Assembly: GCA_947449575.1 (NCBI GenBank) | Contig: CANFRV010000004.1 | Span: forward strand, 62,001 to 126,000 | Reading direction: 5' to 3' | Length of the DNA: 64,000 bases | Source: Flavobacteriales bacterium | GTDB lineage: Bacteria; Bacteroidota; Bacteroidia; Flavobacteriales_D; Crocinitomicaceae | Part shown: in pieces, positions 14,391 through 62,407 of the stretch | How the letters are laid out: each line of letters begins with the position of its first letter | How positions within the stretch are numbered: the first letter of the stretch is position 1 | The notes under the pieces: model-generated | Told to the model about the DNA's origin: nothing | Databases searched by the model: none | The model's input: the letters and a program-made list of their open reading frames with translations, nothing else | Position numbers and translations under genes: made by a program

Positions 14391-15203
14391 ATGGGTAAAA
14401 TTATTGCAATTGCAAATCAAAAAGGTGGTGTTGGAAAAACGACAACAGCTATTAATTTAGGTGGTTGTTTTGGTGTATTAGAATACAAAACACTTCTAGT
14501 CGATGCTGATCCTCAAGCAAATGCTACATCAGGACTTGGTTTTGATCCCAAAAGCACAAAGAACATTTATGATTGTTTGATAAACGGTGTTCACCCTAAA
14601 GAACTTATTCTTACGACACAAAATCCAAATTTAGACATACTTCCTTCACATATTGATTTAGTTGGTGCAGAACTAGAAATGATTGATTTGCCCAACCGGG
14701 AATACATGTTAAAATTGGCGCTAGACAAGGTGAAGGATGAATATGATTTCATTATTATTGATTGTTCACCATCCTTAGGACTAATTACTGTTAACGCATT
14801 AACTGCTGCAGATTCTGTCATGATTCCGGTGCAGTGTGAATATTTTGCACTAGAAGGATTGGGTAAATTATTAAATACGATAAAAATTATTCAAGGGCGA
14901 CTAAATGAAAATCTTGAAATTGAAGGTATCATTTTAACCATGTATGATTCTCGTTTACGTTTGGCAAATCAAGTTGTAGACGAAGTGAAAACACATTTTC
15001 AAGAATTAGTTTTTGATACTGTAATTCATAGAAATACAAAGTTAGGCGAAGCTCCAAGTTTTGGTGAGACCATTATTATGCACGATGCTTCGAGTAAAGG
15101 ATCTTTTAATTATCTTAACTTTGCCAGAGAGGTTCTGCAAAAAAACGACGCGACAAAAATAAATAACGAAACTAAAAAAATTGAATTAGACAATGAACTC
15201 TAA
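14391..15203 (+). CDS. parA: Chromosome-partitioning ATPase ParA (Soj)
   Basis: A 270-aa deviant Walker ATPase that dimerises on DNA and moves ParB-parS complexes during segregation. It opens with the deviant Walker A KGGVGKTTT (residues 11-19), followed by VDADPQANATSGLG, Walker B DFIIIDCSPSLG and the PVQCEYFALEGL motif. The absence of an N-terminal DNA-binding domain marks the chromosomal type rather than plasmid type Ia. It overlaps parB by 11 bases. Gene order parA-parB-DUF5683-dapB-lepB-WbqC is conserved in Flavobacteriia. Confidence 0.96.
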   Translation: MGKIIAIANQKGGVGKTTTAINLGGCFGVLEYKTLLVDADPQANATSGLGFDPKSTKNIYDCLINGVHPKELILTTQNPNLDILPSHIDLVGAELEMIDLPNREYMLKLALDKVKDEYDFIIIDCSPSLGLITVNALTAADSVMIPVQCEYFALEGLGKLLNTIKIIQGRLNENLEIEGIILTMYDSRLRLANQVVDEVKTHFQELVFDTVIHRNTKLGEAPSFGETIIMHDASSKGSFNYLNFAREVLQKNDATKINNETKKIELDNEL

Positions 15204-16110
15204 TACTACAAAACGTTCTGCATTAGGAAAAGGTTTAAGCGCTTTATTGGAAAATGCAAGTACAGACATAACAACAAGAAATGCCTCTTCCGATGTCGTT
15301 GGATCAATTGCTATGCTTTCCATCGCGAATATTGAAGCGAATCCTTTCAATCCACGTTCTAATTTTGAAAAATCATCTCTTGAAGAATTGCGTCAGTCCA
15401 TTGCTGTTCATGGAATAATTCAACCATTAACCGTTCGAAAATTAGGGAGAGATAAATACCAATTAATTTCTGGTGAACGACGTTTCAGAGCTTCGCAATT
15501 AGCTGAATTAACGGAAGTCCCAGCCTACATTCGAGTTGCTAATGACCAATCAATGTTAGAAATGGCATTGGTAGAAAATATTCAACGCGAAGATTTAAAT
15601 TCTATAGAAGTTGCCCTTTCATATCAACGATTAATTGATGAATGTTCGCTTACACAAGATCAATTAAGTCAAAAAATATCTAAAAGTCGTTCTAGTATTA
15701 CTAATCATATCCGGTTATTAAAACTACCTGCTGATATTCAAGCTGGTGTGCGCGACAACCTAATATCTATGGGGCATGCAAGAGCTTTAGTTTCTGCAGG
15801 AGAAGAGCAAATACAACTAGCTATTTTCAATAAAATTCTTTTAGAAAGTCTATCTGTTCGCGACGTTGAAATATTAATCAAACAAGGAAATACGGGTGAA
15901 ATTTCTAGAGAAGAATCCCAAAAACCAAGGGAAGTAAATGGAGTAAAATCTTACTTAACAAGCAACCAAGTTGTTTTTAAAGAACATTTAGCAGACAAAC
16001 TTTCCTCAAAAATTGAACTGAAGAAAACAAGTAACGGGACCGGAAAAATAATCATCAATTTTAATTCAGATGTAGATTTTAACCGAATTATTGAACTTTT
16101 AAATAAATAA
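15193..16110 (+). CDS. parB: Chromosome-partitioning protein ParB (Spo0J)
   Basis: A CTP-dependent DNA clamp that loads at parS. The 305-aa protein begins with the typical RSALGKGLSALLENA segment that contacts ParA. Next is the N-terminal CTPase domain with NPFNPR and the signature SGERRFRASQLA (about residues 95-106). A helix-turn-helix follows at about 150-185 (LTQDQLSQKISKSRSSITNHIRLL), and then a C-terminal dimerisation domain. It overlaps parA upstream and shares a base with the next gene (TAATG). No parS site was found in the window. Confidence 0.96.
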   Translation: MNSNTTKRSALGKGLSALLENASTDITTRNASSDVVGSIAMLSIANIEANPFNPRSNFEKSSLEELRQSIAVHGIIQPLTVRKLGRDKYQLISGERRFRASQLAELTEVPAYIRVANDQSMLEMALVENIQREDLNSIEVALSYQRLIDECSLTQDQLSQKISKSRSSITNHIRLLKLPADIQAGVRDNLISMGHARALVSAGEEQIQLAIFNKILLESLSVRDVEILIKQGNTGEISREESQKPREVNGVKSYLTSNQVVFKEHLADKLSSKIELKKTSNGTGKIIINFNSDVDFNRIIELLNK

Positions 16111-16682
16111 TGAAATTTCCGTTTGCTTTTGTTTTTATCTTGCTAACTAACTTTTTATTTTGTCAAGATAAAAGTCTTGACAGTGTGCAAATTGATACAA
16201 TATCCAAATTTTCAGTAAAAAAAGCGGTCATATATTCTGCTGTATTACCAGGTGCTGGTCAATTTTATAATTATTTAGAAACTAGAAAAGGCACAAAAGG
16301 AAGAAATAATGTCTTTTGGAAGGTCCCACTTTTCTATGCTGCAATTGGCGCTAGTGGATACTTCCTCATCAAAAATCAATCTACTCAACTTTCACTAAAA
16401 CACGAATACGATTATAGAATAGCAAATCCTGGAATTATCTCCGATCCTAAATGGGCTTCATACGATTCTCTAGGTGTTTTAACATTATACAACACGTATT
16501 CCTCTCAAAGAGATTTATCTATTTTAACATTTGGGATTGCCTATTTATTTCAAGTACTTGATGCTGGAATTGGAGCACATTTTGTAAAATTTGATATTTC
16601 TGATGATTTAACTTTGCAAATTAAACCCAAGATACTAAACAACAATACCGCAGGATTAGGATTAACCTTTAATTTTCGTTAA
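16110..16682 (+). CDS. DUF5683-domain membrane protein
   Basis: A 190-aa protein with a signal peptide (to about residue 18, FLFCQDKS). It then has the DUF5683 hallmark KKAVIYSAVLPGAGQFYN, a membrane segment (VPLFYAAIGASGYFLI) and a second hydrophobic segment near residues 135-155. The start overlaps the parB stop. The family has no known biochemical role; it is a routine neighbour of parB in Bacteroidota. Confidence 0.85.
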   Translation: MKFPFAFVFILLTNFLFCQDKSLDSVQIDTISKFSVKKAVIYSAVLPGAGQFYNYLETRKGTKGRNNVFWKVPLFYAAIGASGYFLIKNQSTQLSLKHEYDYRIANPGIISDPKWASYDSLGVLTLYNTYSSQRDLSILTFGIAYLFQVLDAGIGAHFVKFDISDDLTLQIKPKILNNNTAGLGLTFNFR

Positions 16683-52883: not shown

Positions 52884-54125
52884 TTATTTTTCGATATCGA
52901 ATATTAATTGAGAAATAGTAGCTTCTGAGAAATATTCATTGGCAGTTTCAAGTAATTCTTCAGCGGTTAATTTATCGATTGATTCATAAATTTCTTGGAT
53001 GGTATCTATTTGATTGAACATCAATAAACTCTTCCCTAAACCAAGCATTAATCCAGAATTACTATCTAAACCTAACGCTAGATGACCTTTTAATTGCTCT
53101 TTTGAAGCATTTAGTTGCTGCGTTCCTAATTTTTTATCGCGCAATAATTTCAATTCCTTATGCACCAATTCAACAGACTTTTTAATATATTTTGGATCGG
53201 TTCCTAAATATACAGCCCAATATCCTGTGTCAAAAAATGTGGAATAAGTAGCTTCGATATTATAAGAGTAACCATATTTCTCACGAATCGACAAATTTAA
53301 TCTAGAATTCAATGCTGGTCCTCCTAAAATATTGGTTAATAAGGTCATGCTTCTGCGTGAATCGTTTATATAACTAGGAGCTAATCCACCAATCATCGCA
53401 TGAACTTGAAAATTTGATTCTTGGGTTTTTATTTTAAATGGAGAATTTCCTGAATAATCATTTTGAATTATCTCCACTTTTTTTTGTTGACAACCAATGA
53501 AATCAGCTTCAAGTATCTTTTCTAATTGTTTTCTTGGCACATCACCAACGAATGAAATAACCATATTGTCAGAGGTGAAAAAGCGACTAACATAATTCAA
53601 TAAATGCTTTCTCCCAAAACTTTTTACACTTTCTTTAGTTCCTAAAATATTATTTCCCAGTGCATGCCCCTTGAAAAGATGCGCCTCAAAATCATCAAAT
53701 ATCTTTTCACTAGGACTGTCTAAATATGAATTAATCTCATCTAAAATAATTTCTTTTTCCTTTTGAATTTCCTTCAAAGGAAAAGAAGAATTAAGAGTAA
53801 TGTCTGCTAATAATTCCGAGGCTCTTTTGCAATGATTTTTAGTGAAGGACGCATAAATACAAATTTCCTCTTTGCTCGTAAAAGCATTAAGTTCGCCTCC
53901 TACGGAATCTAATCGCGACAATACATGAAATGCCTTACGCTTATTTGTTCCTTTAAAAATACAATGTTCTAAAAAATGAGCAAGCCCTTCTTCATCTGGA
54001 TTTTCAAATCGTGAACCAGCTAAAATAGTCACCCCCATATGCGCAACTTGAGCAAATGCGTGTAAATAAACTACGCGAATACCATTCGACAACTGAAATA
54101 CTTCAGGCTTTATTTCGTACATCAA
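52884..54125 (-). CDS. M16-family zinc peptidase (single-chain half, active-type)
   Basis: A 413-aa pitrilysin/processing-peptidase-like protein without a signal peptide. The inverted zinc motif is HFLEH (His50, Glu53, His54) in EEGLAHFLEHCIFKGTNKR, with the distal Glu in the KEIILDEINSYLDSP segment. A second, inactive homologous domain makes up the C-terminal half and includes LNSRLNLSIREKYGYSYN, the R/Y substrate motif. It overlaps pdxH by 4 bases (ATGA). Cytosolic location suggests peptide turnover or processing. Confidence 0.92.
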   Translation of the reverse strand: MMYEIKPEVFQLSNGIRVVYLHAFAQVAHMGVTILAGSRFENPDEEGLAHFLEHCIFKGTNKRKAFHVLSRLDSVGGELNAFTSKEEICIYASFTKNHCKRASELLADITLNSSFPLKEIQKEKEIILDEINSYLDSPSEKIFDDFEAHLFKGHALGNNILGTKESVKSFGRKHLLNYVSRFFTSDNMVISFVGDVPRKQLEKILEADFIGCQQKKVEIIQNDYSGNSPFKIKTQESNFQVHAMIGGLAPSYINDSRRSMTLLTNILGGPALNSRLNLSIREKYGYSYNIEATYSTFFDTGYWAVYLGTDPKYIKKSVELVHKELKLLRDKKLGTQQLNASKEQLKGHLALGLDSNSGLMLGLGKSLLMFNQIDTIQEIYESIDKLTAEELLETANEYFSEATISQLIFDIEK

Positions 54126-54766
54126 GGGTTTTTTCTATAGATTTTCCATTCATTATTTTCTTTTTCAAAAATAATGCGGTCATGCAAGCGAGATGGCCTC
54201 CCCTGCCAAAATTCAATTAATCGTGGCTTTAGCAAATACCCACCCCAATGCGGAGGTCTAGGAACAAAGTCTGGAAATTTAGCTGCCATTTCACCAACTC
54301 TTTTTTCTAGAACACTTCGTTCAGCTAAAGTATCACTTTGATTGGAAGCCCATGCTCCAACTTGACTTCCTCTTGGCCTTGTAGAAAAATAAGCATCACT
54401 CATCTTATTACTAACTTTTTCAACGACGCCTTCAATGCGAATTTGACGTTCATTTCCAGGCCAGAAAAATAACATCGATGCATTATTATTCTTTTCTAAA
54501 TCTTGTCCTTTGTGACTATTATAATTTGTAAAAAAAACAAAAGACTCATCTATTAACTCCTTTAAATACAAAATTCTAGAACTTGGCCTGTTTTCAGAAT
54601 CAACCGTAGACAAAACAAAAGCATTTGACTCTAATTGCTTGGAATCAAACGCCTCTTTATACCATTTATTAAAAAAAGTAAAAGGTTCTTTTCCAAAAAA
54701 ACCATCTAACTGTCCGTGATCAAAATCTCGGTGATCATTTTTGATTTGTTCTAGAAAATCTTCCAT
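54122..54766 (-). CDS. pdxH: Pyridoxamine/pyridoxine 5'-phosphate oxidase PdxH
   Basis: An FMN-dependent final step of pyridoxal-phosphate synthesis and salvage. The 214-aa protein has the N-terminal segment DPFTFF-like (EPFTFFNKWYKEA), the FMN-binding SSRILYLKEL and FFTNYNSHKGQDL, and RIEGVVEKVS. The signatures STRPRGSQVGAWASNQS and, near the C-terminus, EFWQGRPSRLHDRI complete the active site. It sits 11 bases after the DUF4494 gene and overlaps the M16 gene. It supplies the cofactor used by aminotransferases such as the one at 62627. Confidence 0.96.
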   Translation of the reverse strand: MEDFLEQIKNDHRDFDHGQLDGFFGKEPFTFFNKWYKEAFDSKQLESNAFVLSTVDSENRPSSRILYLKELIDESFVFFTNYNSHKGQDLEKNNNASMLFFWPGNERQIRIEGVVEKVSNKMSDAYFSTRPRGSQVGAWASNQSDTLAERSVLEKRVGEMAAKFPDFVPRPPHWGGYLLKPRLIEFWQGRPSRLHDRIIFEKENNEWKIYRKNP

Positions 54767-54777
54767 ACTTTTAATTT

Positions 54778-55404
54778 TTATTCATCATCACTAAAACCAT
54801 CTTCTAGCTCGCTGTCTTCATCTTCTTCATCATCAAAATCCACTTCTTCATCATCAAAATCTGAACTAGGTGCTGAATACACTTTTTTTCCTGTAGGAAT
54901 TTCTGTCTCAACTTCAATCTCTTTTTTATCTTCAAGAGGTTTTCGACTAATTTCCTTGTCTAATTCTTCTCTGTAAGGGAAAATATCTACAATTGGGGAA
55001 ACGATAATGGAAGGAATTAAGTAATCAACCATTAAAGTGGATAAACTTTCTTTTAGTTTATCAAAAGCATCTTTCACAGAATTGGCAGTAACCAAGAAAT
55101 TTTGAGCTACTTTTTTCTTTTTCTCAACTTCACCATCAACACTTGACCCTTCACTTTCAAAAGTGATTTTACATTTATACCACACATCACATTCTTCATA
55201 ATGAAAAATATCGTGAATTTCAGTACGACTTATTCCAACTACGTTAAATTCGCCTCTAATAATTTGACCTAATTCTTCATAGATTCGTGTTTCAGCATCT
55301 GTAAACGTCATTGCGCATAGCAAATAAGGCTCAGAAACACGTTTAAAAGTTCCATTTTCTAGTTGTTTTGTATATTTAACTTTTACTGTAAACCAATTAT
55401 TCAT
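54778..55404 (-). CDS. DUF4494 protein with very acidic C-terminal tail
   Basis: A 208-aa protein. The first ~155 residues fit the Bacteroidota family DUF4494, with NNWFTVKVKYTKQLENG, YLLCAMTFTDAETRIYEEL and a CDVWYKCKITFE box. It then has a charged linker and a C-terminal ~30-residue tail of almost only Asp, Glu and Ser. Such tails can mimic nucleic acid or act as flexible inhibitors, but here no function is known. Its promoter may be the -7 box at 55479-55486; it starts the reverse run into pdxH, M16 and the DnaJ gene. Confidence 0.88.
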   Translation of the reverse strand: MNNWFTVKVKYTKQLENGTFKRVSEPYLLCAMTFTDAETRIYEELGQIIRGEFNVVGISRTEIHDIFHYEECDVWYKCKITFESEGSSVDGEVEKKKKVAQNFLVTANSVKDAFDKLKESLSTLMVDYLIPSIIVSPIVDIFPYREELDKEISRKPLEDKKEIEVETEIPTGKKVYSAPSSDFDDEEVDFDDEEDEDSELEDGFSDDE

Positions 55405-56851: not shown

Positions 56852-58321
56852 ATGAATAAACTTTTTATCACAGCATTTTTGAGTGCGACTGCTCTTTCTT
56901 CCTTTTCTCAAAAGAAAATAGAATATGTAGAGTACAATTTACCAAACGGAATTCATGTTATTTTGCATGAAGAACACGCTACACCTATCGTAGCAGTATC
57001 GATCTTATATCACGTTGGGTCTAAAAATGAAAAAGCAGATCGAACTGGATTCGCACACTTTTTTGAACATTTGTTATTTGAAGGGTCAGAAAACATCAAA
57101 CGAGGCGAATATAGTGCTTTGGTTGAAAAAAATGGAGGTGCATTGAATGCAAACACTTCCAACGATCGTACTTATTATTATGAAGTTTTGCCTTCTAATC
57201 AGTTAGAATTAGGTTTATGGCTAGAAAGTGAGAGATTACTTCACGCTAAAGTTGAAACCACTGGAATTGAAACACAACGTTCAGTTGTAAAAGAAGAAAA
57301 AAGACAGCGAGTAGATAATCAACCATATGCAACTTTTATAGGTGAAATATTTAAAAGAATGTTTACTGTGCATCCTTATAATTGGCAGCCAATTGGAAGT
57401 ATGGAACATCTTGATGCTGCGGTTGAAAAAGATTACATTGATTTTTACAGAACTTTCTATGTACCAGCCAATTCAACATTGTCAATTGCTGGAGATATCA
57501 ATATTGAGCAAACAAAAAAATGGATTTCTAAATATTTCTCTACAATTCCTAAAGGTCAAGCAATTAATCTTTTTCGTGATTTTGAAACGTTATCAAATGA
57601 GGCATTTCTAGCTAAATATGCTGTTGAAAAATCTAAATTTGATTCAAAGGATTTTATGAATTCAAAAGATCCAATCGCAAAAAAACTAATCGCAGCTGAG
57701 TCAGCAAAACCAACGATTATTCCTCGACCTGAAAAACCTACAGAAAAAACGGTTGGAGTGACAAAAGATATTATTTACGATAATATCCAACTTCCTGCTT
57801 TATTTATGGCATATCGACTTCCTGCTGAAACGAGTAAGGATTTCCCTGCATTAGAAATGTTGAACGAAATATTATCTGGAGGATCTAGCTCACGAATGAA
57901 TAAAGTAATCGTTGAGAAAAAACAAATGGCGATGCAAGTATTTACTTTTGCATATGGTTTAGAAGATGCTGGTCTGGGAATATTTGGTGCAATTGGTTCT
58001 AATGATGTCAATCTTGATACATTACAAATAGAGTTAGATACCCAAATTGATTTAATTAAAAAAGAATTAATATCTCAAGAAGAATTTGAGAAAATTAGAA
58101 ACCAATTTGAAAATCAGTTAGTTACATCTAATTCTTCCATTGAAGGCATTTGTGAAAATTTGGCTAATAATTATGTGTATTTTGGAAATGCCAATCGTGT
58201 AAATAATTTACTGGAAAGTTATATGAAAGTAACACGTGAAGATATCCAAAGAGTTGCTGTGCAATATCTAACTCAAGATGCACGCATCATTTTGCATTAT
58301 TTACCAAAAAAAACTAATTAA
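56852..58321 (+). CDS. Exported M16 zinc peptidase, active subunit
   Basis: A 489-aa periplasmic peptidase. The signal peptide ends near LSSFSQK. The zinc motif HFFEH (His69, Glu72, His73) is intact in TGFAHFFEHLLFEGSEN, with the distal Glu in SVVKEEKRQRVDNQPY. The C-terminal homologous domain (about 250-489) contains LSGGSSSRMNKVIVEKKQ. It is followed 82 bases later by a second M16 gene whose zinc motif is lost. Such active/inactive pairs act as heterodimers, as in mitochondrial processing peptidase and PqqF-like or bacterial YmxG-type pairs. Likely substrates are exported peptides. Confidence 0.94.
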   Translation: MNKLFITAFLSATALSSFSQKKIEYVEYNLPNGIHVILHEEHATPIVAVSILYHVGSKNEKADRTGFAHFFEHLLFEGSENIKRGEYSALVEKNGGALNANTSNDRTYYYEVLPSNQLELGLWLESERLLHAKVETTGIETQRSVVKEEKRQRVDNQPYATFIGEIFKRMFTVHPYNWQPIGSMEHLDAAVEKDYIDFYRTFYVPANSTLSIAGDINIEQTKKWISKYFSTIPKGQAINLFRDFETLSNEAFLAKYAVEKSKFDSKDFMNSKDPIAKKLIAAESAKPTIIPRPEKPTEKTVGVTKDIIYDNIQLPALFMAYRLPAETSKDFPALEMLNEILSGGSSSRMNKVIVEKKQMAMQVFTFAYGLEDAGLGIFGAIGSNDVNLDTLQIELDTQIDLIKKELISQEEFEKIRNQFENQLVTSNSSIEGICENLANNYVYFGNANRVNNLLESYMKVTREDIQRVAVQYLTQDARIILHYLPKKTN

Positions 58322-58403
58322 TAATAAAAAATAAAATGTTTATTAATTTTTCTTTTTTTCAAAACTGAATTTTCATAAAACATTTAAAATAAAATATATA
58401 GCA

Positions 58404-60488
58404 ATGACTAAACACATTTTATACATCGGCTTATTACTTCCTTCGATATTATTTGGGCAATTGGACCGTTCAATTGTGCCAATAGCAGGAAAAGCACCGG
58501 TTATCAATATTAAAGATTCTGAAGTTTTTACTACTGAGAATGGAATCACAGTAATTTTATCTGAAAATCACAACCTGCCTAAAGTATCCTTTAGATTGGT
58601 AACCGATTCTTCTCCTATGGTGGAAGGACAAAAAGCAGGATTATCTAGTATAGCTGGAGAGTTAATTATGTCAGGAACGACTAATCGCTCAAAAGATCAG
58701 CTAGACAATGAAAAAGATTACATTGGAGCAACTTTAAACGCTGATAACCAAATAATTTCGTTATCATGTCTAACAAAGCATTTAGACAAAGGATTGGCTT
58801 TGATGTCAGATGTGATGATGAATGCAAACTTTCCTTTGAGTGAATTTGACCGGGTAAAGAATCAAAATATCGATAATTTATTGGCTGCAAAATCGGACCC
58901 TGGATCAATGGCTTCAAACGCTGAATCAAAAGCAAACTTTTCAAAAGGTCACCCATATGGAGAAGTAATGACAGAAACAACATTGAATAATATTACGTTG
59001 GACGATGTGAAAAATTATTACTCAAAAACGTTTACTCCAGATGGTAGTTATTTAGTAATTGTGGGCGATATTTCCATTGAACAAGCCAAATTAATGGTTG
59101 GAAAATATTTCTCTAATTGGAAAGGTGGTAAGGTATATAAGCAAGAATTAGTCGATGCTAATTTCCACAAGGGAAACCGAGTTATTTTTGTAAAAAAGCA
59201 AGGAGCAGTTCAATCTGTTGTTCACGTTTCTTTTCCAATTAAAATGAAACCAGGAGAAGCGAATCAACTTCCTTTAAATGTGTTGAATGGCATACTTGGA
59301 GGCGGTGGTTTTGGAACGAGATTCATGGCTAATTTAAGAGAAGACAAAGCTTTTACATATGGCTGCTATTCATCTGTCAATATTGATGAAGATGGAAGTT
59401 GGTTTTCAGCTGCTGGAAATTTTAGAAATGATGTTACAGATAGTGCAATAACTGAAATTTTGTTTGAACTTGATAATATTGCAAATGGATACGTTAAAGA
59501 TGATGAATTAAATTTGACTAAAATGGCGATGGCAGGAAGTTTTGCACGATCACTAGAAAACCCTCAAACCGTTGCACGTTTCGCATTAAACATCATTAAA
59601 AATAAATTAAACAAAGATTACTATCAGACATACTTAAAACGTTTAGAATCAATAACAAAAGAAGATGTTTTAACAATGGCTCAAACATATTTCACGGCTA
59701 AAAATTGCAATATCATTGTGGTGGGAAATGAAGAAGTTTTAGCGAAAATAAAAAAGTTTGATTCAGACGGAATAATTGAACTTTTAGATGCTTATGGAGA
59801 AGAAGTGAAAGAAATGAAACCTGCAACAATTGCGAAAGAGGTGTTAATTGAAAAATATATTCTTGCAGTTACTCAATCAGCAACTTCTAAGTCCGCACTT
59901 AAAAAAATAGCTAAAATAAAGTCAACTGAGGAAATAGCAGAATTGACGATGGCTCAAATTCCATTTCCATTAAAATCAACAAAAGTATGGGCGTCTCCAT
60001 CAACTGAAGCTGAAAAATTGGAAGGCCAAGGAATGGTTTTTCAACGTAGCTACTTTGATGGAAAAACAGGTGCAACTAATTCTATGCAATTTGGGAAAAA
60101 AGAATTTACAAATGAAGAAATTGTTGCAAAAAACAGTTCTTTTGGAATTATTCCGGAAGTGAATTATTCTAAATCTACGATGAAGTATGAATTGCTTGGC
60201 ATTGAAAACCTGAATGGTAAAGATTATTATGTTTTAAAAACAAACGATGGACTAAAAGAAGGTTTCAGCTATTTTGATGTGGTAACCTTCTTGAAAGTGA
60301 AAAGCGTTGAAATTAAAAAAGAAGGAGATCAAATAGTTGAGTCAACGACCACTTTTGCTGATTTTAAAGATGTAAATGGAATATTATTTCCTCAGACGTT
60401 TACGTTAGCTGCTGGAGAAAACGTATTTACCGGAAAAGTTATATCAACAATCATCAATGGAAAACCAGATTTTAAACCGTATATGTAA
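58404..60488 (+). CDS. Exported M16 family protein, inactive partner with C-terminal extension
   Basis: A 694-aa protein with a signal peptide (LYIGLLLPSILFGQ). Two M16 domains span about 35-455, but the zinc motif is destroyed: the position of HxxEH reads SIAGE (Ser82, Gly85, Glu86) in AGLSSIAGELIMSGTTN. The substrate-binding part is kept (GGGGFGTRFMANLREDKAFTYG). The last ~240 residues are extra: a linker, then a beta-rich module (MKYELLGIENLNGKDYYVLKT, then FADFKDVNGILFPQTFTL) resembling lipoprotein-sorting (LolA/LppX-like) folds. It probably pairs with the preceding active M16 protein. Confidence 0.92.
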   Translation: MTKHILYIGLLLPSILFGQLDRSIVPIAGKAPVINIKDSEVFTTENGITVILSENHNLPKVSFRLVTDSSPMVEGQKAGLSSIAGELIMSGTTNRSKDQLDNEKDYIGATLNADNQIISLSCLTKHLDKGLALMSDVMMNANFPLSEFDRVKNQNIDNLLAAKSDPGSMASNAESKANFSKGHPYGEVMTETTLNNITLDDVKNYYSKTFTPDGSYLVIVGDISIEQAKLMVGKYFSNWKGGKVYKQELVDANFHKGNRVIFVKKQGAVQSVVHVSFPIKMKPGEANQLPLNVLNGILGGGGFGTRFMANLREDKAFTYGCYSSVNIDEDGSWFSAAGNFRNDVTDSAITEILFELDNIANGYVKDDELNLTKMAMAGSFARSLENPQTVARFALNIIKNKLNKDYYQTYLKRLESITKEDVLTMAQTYFTAKNCNIIVVGNEEVLAKIKKFDSDGIIELLDAYGEEVKEMKPATIAKEVLIEKYILAVTQSATSKSALKKIAKIKSTEEIAELTMAQIPFPLKSTKVWASPSTEAEKLEGQGMVFQRSYFDGKTGATNSMQFGKKEFTNEEIVAKNSSFGIIPEVNYSKSTMKYELLGIENLNGKDYYVLKTNDGLKEGFSYFDVVTFLKVKSVEIKKEGDQIVESTTTFADFKDVNGILFPQTFTLAAGENVFTGKVISTIINGKPDFKPYM

Positions 60489-60565: not shown

Positions 60566-62407
60566 ATGCGCTATTTCGTTTGCCTCATTGTATTCCTTTG
60601 TTTCTCTGGTTGTTTGTACTCTCAGACCCTAGAAGACTTGGAAACAAAATCTTTTTATTATGATGTAAACAATTATAGTCTTACTCCTGAATCAATGCTA
60701 CTTTTAGCTGAATTTGTGGAAGAAGTAAAACTCAATCCGATTGAAATCGTGGAAATTATTGGATATGTTGAAAAACATGGTTCTGAGACTTATAATAAAA
60801 TAAAATCAAAAAGACGAATGAGCTCTATAAAAGGAGTAATCGATTCTGCTATCGTTATACACCAATATAAACCTGAAAATATTGATTATCCTCCCTCCTT
60901 CTTATACAGTTATAGCGATGGTTATAATTGGAGGCGAGTTGATATTACATTCCGAAAAATGCCTGAAAGATTAATTTTACCTATAACAACCAATCAAAAG
61001 ATAAATACGACAGATCAAATTCAAGATATAAATAATAACACGTCTCCTAATGCAATTGACAATGAGTCAAAGATTGATCCAACAATCACCAACGTTACAG
61101 GTGAAAAAATAGAAGATCTAGTCAAAAATACTGACAAGTCTATTATAACAACTCCTGAAAAGATAGATGAGAAAATCTCAAATCCTGAAAAAAATAAAAT
61201 CATTGAAGCTGTTAAACTGGCCGAAGAAATTGAAATTCAAAAATTAAATAACAATATAATTATATTAGATTCTACTCAAAAAGATTTAAACTTAAATCTT
61301 AAACCGGATGAAACAGGGAAAATTTCAACCATAGGTAAATCTCAAGAGGATATTGATAAAATGGTAATTCGTGAAAAATCAAGGGAATCAAACGGTAATA
61401 GAAAAACAGCACATCCTGAAGTCGGCGTGAGACTTTCAAAAATAGATGTTTCCAATATGGATAATTCTGTAGTCCTAATCAACTTAAATATTCAGTTTAT
61501 AGGAGATGCTCCGATAATTAACAGTTCTTCTATAAGTGAAATGGATGATCTTGTTAGGTTTCTCCAGAAAAATAATTCTATTGATGCGTTTATTCGAGGA
61601 CATGTATGTTGTGGTGATGAAATGCCATTGAGTAAAAAACGGGCAAAAACAGTCTATCTTGAATTAATTAGACGAGGGATTAATCCTGACAGATTAAGAT
61701 TTCAAGGTTTTAGCAATACGATTCCTGCTGTATCTCCTGAAAAGACAGATTTGGACAGAAGTAAAAATCGACGCGTTGATGTCATGTTCTCTAAAACAAG
61801 TAGAAGTAATGATCCAATTATTCCTATAACACAAATTAATGACACTAATTCGAATGATGTGAATGCTATTTTCAGCACGGATGTAAATATCCCTCTTGAA
61901 ATGGATAAAAATGGCAGTATCGAATACAAGACATCAGGAAAAACGCAAGATCAAATTGACCAAATGTTGGTGAGAGAAAAATCTTCATTAAAACCAAAAA
62001 AGGATCTGCAAGACATGCAAGCAAAATTAGCTAATATCAATATTGAGAATCTTACAAGTTCTGTTTCTCTTGTTATTCTTGCTCTGCAGTTTAATGATGT
62101 TGATCCAATTCTAGATGAAACTTCGTTGAAAGAAATGGATGATTTATTTAATTTCTTGAACCAAAACAATCAAATTCATGCTTTTATCAGAGGTCATGTT
62201 TGCTGCGGAGACAATTTAAAACTAAGTAAAAAAAGGGCCAAGTATGTATATCAAGAATTAATCAAAAGAGGTGTAAATCCCGACAGATTGCGCTACCAAG
62301 GATTTAGTAACACTTTATTACTTGTTAACCCTGAAAGAACTGAAGCAGACAGAACAAAGAACAAAAGAGTTGATATAATTTTTTCTATCACTACAAAAGT
62401 GAATTAA
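60566..62407 (+). CDS. Exported protein with three tandem OmpA-like domains
   Basis: A 613-aa protein. The signal peptide ends near CLYSQ. OmpA-like domain 1 is at about 29-135 (SFYYDVNNYSLTPESML, IIGYVEKHG, YNWRRVDITF). A 120-residue low-complexity linker rich in Asn, Asp, Ile and Lys follows. Then two copies of a ~200-residue unit, starting at about 257 and 458. Each has a short lead-in (KSQEDIDKMVIREKS / KTQDQIDQMLVREKS), a linker and an OmpA domain (AFIRGHVCCGD, LSKKRAK, NPDRLRFQGFSNT, NRRVDVMF). The peptidoglycan-contact Arg in LSKKRA is kept; the usual GHTD reads GHVCCGD. No membrane barrel is present, so it is probably a multivalent peptidoglycan anchor. Confidence 0.85.
   Translation: MRYFVCLIVFLCFSGCLYSQTLEDLETKSFYYDVNNYSLTPESMLLLAEFVEEVKLNPIEIVEIIGYVEKHGSETYNKIKSKRRMSSIKGVIDSAIVIHQYKPENIDYPPSFLYSYSDGYNWRRVDITFRKMPERLILPITTNQKINTTDQIQDINNNTSPNAIDNESKIDPTITNVTGEKIEDLVKNTDKSIITTPEKIDEKISNPEKNKIIEAVKLAEEIEIQKLNNNIIILDSTQKDLNLNLKPDETGKISTIGKSQEDIDKMVIREKSRESNGNRKTAHPEVGVRLSKIDVSNMDNSVVLINLNIQFIGDAPIINSSSISEMDDLVRFLQKNNSIDAFIRGHVCCGDEMPLSKKRAKTVYLELIRRGINPDRLRFQGFSNTIPAVSPEKTDLDRSKNRRVDVMFSKTSRSNDPIIPITQINDTNSNDVNAIFSTDVNIPLEMDKNGSIEYKTSGKTQDQIDQMLVREKSSLKPKKDLQDMQAKLANINIENLTSSVSLVILALQFNDVDPILDETSLKEMDDLFNFLNQNNQIHAFIRGHVCCGDNLKLSKKRAKYVYQELIKRGVNPDRLRYQGFSNTLLLVNPERTEADRTKNKRVDIIFSITTKVN

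Follow-up and report, generated by a model that had tools for sequence, protein, structure and literature searches.

OmpA-like domains and the binding of DAP

In genome annotation, OmpA-like domains are as a rule labeled peptidoglycan-binding. Within the Asp/Asn/Arg triad that contacts diaminopimelate (DAP), the Asn sits in the loop that follows the GHTD motif, and the Arg belongs to the LSxxRA motif. The structure of PorE with bound wall peptide indicates how the triad works: the side chains of Asp576, Asn584, and Arg591 hold DAP (PMC7192894). In Acinetobacter OmpA, D271 and R286 hold DAP, and Asp-to-Ala variants of this protein lose DAP binding (PMC6572160). A natural case is provided by the OmpA-like domain of Tp0624, in which the Asp is Ala and the Arg is kept; binding of DAP by this domain was not demonstrated (PMC5104382).

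The window analyzed here, a stretch of DNA of 64,000 nucleotides from a freshwater Flavobacteriales bacterium, encodes an exported protein of 613 aa with three OmpA-like domains (D1, D2, and D3), and the canonical Asp is missing from all three of its pockets. The gene (60566..62407; this and all other coordinates in the window refer to the + strand) is a 613-codon ORF whose ATG lies at 60566 and whose stop codon ends at 62407. When the gene is compared with an ortholog that is 88% identical, dN/dS is 0.06-0.08 in the three domains, 0.30 in linker 1, and 0.10 overall, and the values in the domains argue that the gene is under purifying selection. Together with three PF00691 matches and the presence of orthologs, these values indicate that the three-domain gene is real and that its domains are constrained.

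An exported, soluble protein

The first 20 residues (60566..60625) form a signal peptide, as judged from the hydrophobic N-terminus and a conserved S-Q end. The protein is probably processed by signal peptidase I at this end (~...LYSQ), with the exact cleavage site predicted from the sequence. Although the window protein carries a weak lipobox-like sequence, FSGC, with its Cys at residue 16, several orthologs do not have this Cys (the corresponding ends read, for example, NSLFSQ and TFLNSQ), while the ...SQ end is kept in all full-length orthologs. Because Cys16 is not conserved, identity as a lipoprotein of the Pal/OmpA type has been rejected. The protein is likewise not an OmpA porin: its N-terminus is an OmpA-like globular domain rather than a beta-barrel, and scans with Pfam and NCBIfam models matched neither a beta-barrel family nor any domain other than the three OmpA-like ones. 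Thus, the original prediction of a soluble periplasmic multi-domain protein is supported by the export signal and by the absence of a conserved lipobox, and its statement that there is no beta-barrel agrees with the scans; its statement that there is no lipobox holds for the orthologs as a group and has to be qualified for the FSGC site of the window protein itself.

Three OmpA-like domains

As a whole, the protein scores 86.5 bits with PF00691, which places it in the OmpA family by the curated score. When the segments are scored singly, D2 (32.2 bits) and D3 (38.4 bits) lie above the gathering cut-off of 27.2 bits, and D1 (24.5 bits over residues 31-89) lies below it. D1 (residues ~28-131; 60647..60958) is a diverged N-terminal domain that ends in a strand, WRRVDI, resembling that of other OmpA domains, and it can be aligned with the N-domains of 81 relatives. 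It is followed by linker 1 (60959..61333), which varies in length and sequence among the aligned proteins and is predicted to be disordered (pLDDT mostly <45). Alignment of the repeated units then defines lead-in motif 1, GKSQEDIDKMVIREKS (residues 257-272; 61334..61381), which lies within the duplicated unit and precedes D2 (residues ~300-410; 61463..61795), and lead-in motif 2, GKTQDQIDQMLVREKS (residues 458-473; 61937..61984), which precedes D3 (residues ~498-608; 62057..62389), the duplicate of D2. A profile of the Cys-pair domain, described below, gives D2 155 bits.

Structure prediction, which had been proposed as a check on the domain assignment, yields an OmpA fold for D3. The AlphaFold2 model, made with an input that included 12 related domains, has a pLDDT of 76, and comparisons by Foldseek and VIA-align place it near the domains of MotB, OmpA, Pal, and RmpM (Z 10.7-13.4). 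Specific VIA Z values are 12.1 for 3td5, 10.9 for 6top, 12.3 for 5wtp, 11.4 for 5jir, and 10.7 for 1r1m; this list is a second look at the Foldseek matches, and other PDB families may also fit. The full-length model (pLDDT 50) contains three OmpA-like modules joined by low-confidence linkers and is too weak to define how the domains are arranged. The claim that three segments of the protein are OmpA-like has therefore been borne out by the three PF00691 matches (that of D1 being weak), by the final strand of D1, and by the predicted fold of D3.

Internal duplication and its history

The units that contain D2 and D3 share 85 identities over 155 positions (55%), with a BLOSUM62 score of 437. Shuffled sequences give scores of 53 or less, and eight other compared OmpA proteins of the same genome reach at most 134, so the two units are clearly closer to each other than unrelated OmpA domains are. 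An internal duplication of a unit comprising a lead-in, a linker, and an OmpA domain, as was originally proposed, is thus confirmed.

The same three-domain layout, sought among relatives, is present in five further genomes of the genus (53-90% identity; the copy in genome G004 is interrupted by a contig end before D1). Five congeners instead carry two-domain versions of ~284 aa at the same locus, immediately downstream of the M16 peptidase gene, with the version in G005 disrupted or shortened. A tree built from 53 domains groups every D2 and D3 in a single clade (support 98/98), within which the D2 domains form a clade of their own (56/99) and the D3 domains are consistent with one (AU p 0.43). 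The sister group to D2 and D3 (87/96) includes the C-domains that come from two-domain versions at the M16 locus. Taken together, the domain tree and the shared locus argue for a single duplication in the ancestor of six species, which converted a two-domain into a three-domain protein. A recent duplication confined to this genome is rejected by the tree and by the five further genomes. The lead-in, GK[ST]Q..ID...REKS, occurs twice in each of the six three-domain proteins, and no other instance was found in the genus.

In the window, a pair of neighboring M16 peptidase genes (56852..60488, comprising 56852-58321 and 58404-60488) ends 77 bp upstream of the OmpA-like gene on the same strand, and an aminotransferase gene lies downstream. 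This M16 arrangement is also seen with the two-domain versions in congeners. Among three-domain loci (that of the window and L046, L048, L049, and L050), the gene follows the M16 pair in two genomes and lies beside an unrelated 214-aa gene in four, indicating that either the gene itself or the DNA around it has been relocated within the genus. One contig of a relative (G007:C1) has two inverted copies of the three-domain gene with identical scores, at 14570-16423 (+) and 53144-54997 (-), which are possibly an assembly palindrome.

The pockets of the three domains

Alignment places GHVCC at the position of GHTD both in D2 (residues 345-349; 61598..61612) and in D3 (residues 543-547; 62192..62206), and the DAP-coordinating Asp is therefore Cys in these two domains. 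The loop after GHVCC is four residues shorter and has no Asn, and the Arg is thus the sole DAP-contacting side chain that is left. In D1, the pocket reads GYVEKHGSETYN...KRRM. Consequently, in place of the Asp/Asn/Arg triad, D2 and D3 have Cys/absent/Arg, and D1 has Glu/Asn/Arg. The original prediction took GHVCCGD for the peptidoglycan motif, with a Cys pair added to it. This reading does not hold, since a Cys replaces the Asp and the Asn loop has been cut.

These substitutions bear directly on the idea that all three domains bind peptidoglycan and that the protein serves as a clamp or cross-linker of glycan strands. Such an activity would be compatible with a soluble multi-domain build on flexible linkers, with the OmpA fold and pocket Arg kept by D2 and D3, and with the Asn and Arg retained by D1, where Glu takes the place of Asp. 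However, of the three DAP-holding side chains, D2 and D3 lack two, the Asp and the Asn; DAP binding is lost in the Asp-to-Ala variants of Acinetobacter OmpA (PMC6572160) and was not demonstrated for the natural example, Tp0624 (PMC5104382). Together with the Glu of D1, this makes a trivalent glycan clamp doubtful; with the Arg and the fold retained, the protein could possibly act in this way, but this is not the favored reading and we regard it as improbable. Of the multivalent glycan clamp first proposed, then, the soluble, periplasmic, multi-domain character stands, and the binding of glycan by D2 and D3 is in doubt.

A Cys-pair lineage in the Fluviicola family

The Cys pair extends well beyond this gene. 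Within the order, a strict pattern searched at the DNA level, GHVCC-x5-L[SA]xxRA, matches 22 of 199 genomes, in two families, and among 395 genomes of the phylum it matches the window genome only; the reversed pattern, used as a control, gives zero matches. When 120 genomes of the family were searched with a profile of the Cys-pair domain to lessen motif selection, both Cys residues were found to be kept in 48 of 50 distinct domains (89-90 of 91 overall), with the proviso that the profile was built from GHVCC sequences and may therefore give low ranks to distant members that lack the pair. One of the exceptions is a true variant, GHVYC (L134), and the other, GHVNAP (L162), belongs to a different OmpA protein of 438 aa. 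L162 is one of a separate type of ~430 aa in the order (also L026, L030, and L034) in which GHTD is likewise altered, to GHVN, and the DAP Asp is again missing. The 91 domains of the Cys-pair lineage have a mean identity of 38%, and the loop after the pair ranges from ~5 to 18 residues.

Outside the genus, proteins of this lineage are mostly exported and 250-310 aa in length, with an N-terminal OmpA-like domain and one GH[VI]CC domain, and some are short, single-domain GHVCC proteins. The window protein has the features of the lineage, with GH[VI]CC before the LSxxRA helix and an N-terminal OmpA-like domain ahead of it. Since the pair is already found in one-copy relatives across two families, an origin of the pair through the duplication is rejected; by comparison of these sequences, the Cys pair is older than the duplication, ancestral, and constrained. 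At the DAP positions of 81 N-domains from relatives, the Asp is kept in 64 (with Glu in a further 10), the Asn in 75, and the Arg in 80. With the triad mostly kept in the N-domain and the pair kept in the C-domain, the two domains of one protein have been maintained under different demands, a division of labor within a single chain. In other genera, two different GHVCC genes are often found side by side (L084, L085, L079, L127, and L144), and some genomes carry four or more GHVCC genes.

One explanation for this conservation is that the pair is a chemical site: it could bind a soft metal ion, or it could close into a reversible vicinal disulfide and so serve as a redox switch of the pocket. 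The duplication would then double the number of sites. The pair is as invariant as the Gly and Arg residues of the fold even though the loop length varies, and the four Cys residues of the two GHVCC pairs are the only ones in the mature protein. An ordinary structural disulfide made by an enzyme is less likely, because neither DsbB nor VKOR was found in the genome and its only match to the DsbA family (PF01323), L096 (G000:C2:108174-108788), has no signal peptide; this apparent lack of a periplasmic Dsb oxidase is based on three Pfam models in all. (L096 is FrnE-like and has a C-terminal tail that reads SCSPGGGCC.) Against a chemical site, there is no additional invariant Cys or Asp nearby that would complete a metal site, the conserved His is part of the OmpA fold itself, and metal-handling genes are absent from the neighborhood. 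Within one collection of papers, a search for vicinal disulfides in OmpA, or for OmpA in Crocinitomicaceae, found no paper. We consider a chemical role of this kind unlikely.

The duplicated domain could instead be a protein-protein adaptor that works through surfaces like those of RmpM or Pal, in which case the Cys pair would belong to the structure of the altered loop and have no chemistry of its own, and the duplication would be a lineage-specific elaboration. Protein partners are common for OmpA-fold proteins, and RmpM, which is OmpA-like and has no barrel, associates with porin complexes (PMC4226279). In addition, the conserved GK[ST]Q..ID...REKS motifs are unique to the three-domain proteins within the genus. 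However, both Cys residues are strictly kept across diverged loops, which is more than packing usually demands, and an adaptor with an inert Cys pair therefore seems a doubtful candidate.

A model for the three-domain protein

The observed domains, D3 fold, duplication, loss of the Asp, conservation of the Cys pair, and export signal can be accommodated in a model to which we give about an even chance: a soluble exported periplasmic OmpA-like scaffold, with D1 as a weak wall anchor and D2 and D3 as two rewired Cys-pair domains that probably recognize a ligand other than DAP. In the two-domain ancestor, the N-domain, for which most relatives show Asp/Asn/Arg, would anchor the protein to peptidoglycan, and the pocket of the C-domain presents two adjacent Cys residues at the places of the DAP-gripping Asp and the residue next to it. 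The C-terminal unit, consisting of lead-in, linker, and Cys-pair OmpA domain, was then duplicated. In the window protein, D1 (Glu/Asn/Arg) may make a weakened contact with the wall or none, and D2 and D3, carried on flexible linkers, may double the valency of the protein toward a ligand or partner, probably one other than DAP, in its proposed role as a scaffold. Two considerations go against this scaffold model. An Asp or Asn often lies 1-2 residues after the Cys pair (GD, DD, or ND) and may substitute for the missing one, and the Arg of the pocket is invariant, so that main-chain contacts might still retain a stem peptide.

More broadly, we tentatively suggest, at less than an even chance, that in an OmpA lineage of the Fluviicola family the DAP pocket became a Cys-pair site for a new ligand, beside a classical wall domain, and that this site was duplicated in the genus of the window. 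Possible ligands include a soft metal, a thiol-reactive or redox-controlled one, or another envelope molecule; the neighboring genes revealed no partner that would point to one. The lineage is of more interest than the single gene, and it is not visible from one gene. In two families of Flavobacteriales, a strictly kept Cys pair has taken the place of the key Asp, and the same chain also retains another domain that is usually classical. Should the pocket indeed bind a new ligand, this very common fold would have acquired a further function, and the automatic label 'peptidoglycan-binding' would be wrong for dozens of proteins. The question of the Cys pair can be put to the test, since Fluviicola taffensis is a cultured member of the lineage.

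Comparison with known systems

Neisseria RmpM/PIII (1r1m) resembles the window protein as an exported OmpA-like protein that has the OmpA fold and no barrel; it differs in having a single OmpA domain, a short N-terminal extension, and an association with porins. Acinetobacter OmpA (3td5), PorE (6top), and the Capnocytophaga protein (5wtp) share with D3 the fold, the LSxxRA helix with its DAP-binding Arg, and the final NRRV strand. In contrast to these domains, D2 and D3 of the window protein have GHVCC for GHTD and a loop that is four residues shorter and lacks the Asn, and the protein as a whole has tandem Cys-pair domains plus a third domain, without a barrel, TPR, or lipid anchor. Treponema Tp0624 (5jir) is similar in being a multi-domain protein with a divergent OmpA-like domain that has lost the DAP Asp and kept the Arg; however, its Asp is replaced by Ala rather than by a Cys pair, and its other two domains are not OmpA-like. 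The two-domain GH[VI]CC proteins of the Fluviicola family (for example, that of genome G523) share with it the signal peptide, the N-terminal OmpA-like domain, and the C-terminal GHVCC domain of the window protein. These differ from the window protein in that they have one Cys-pair domain, no lead-in motif, and an N-domain that usually carries the Asp.
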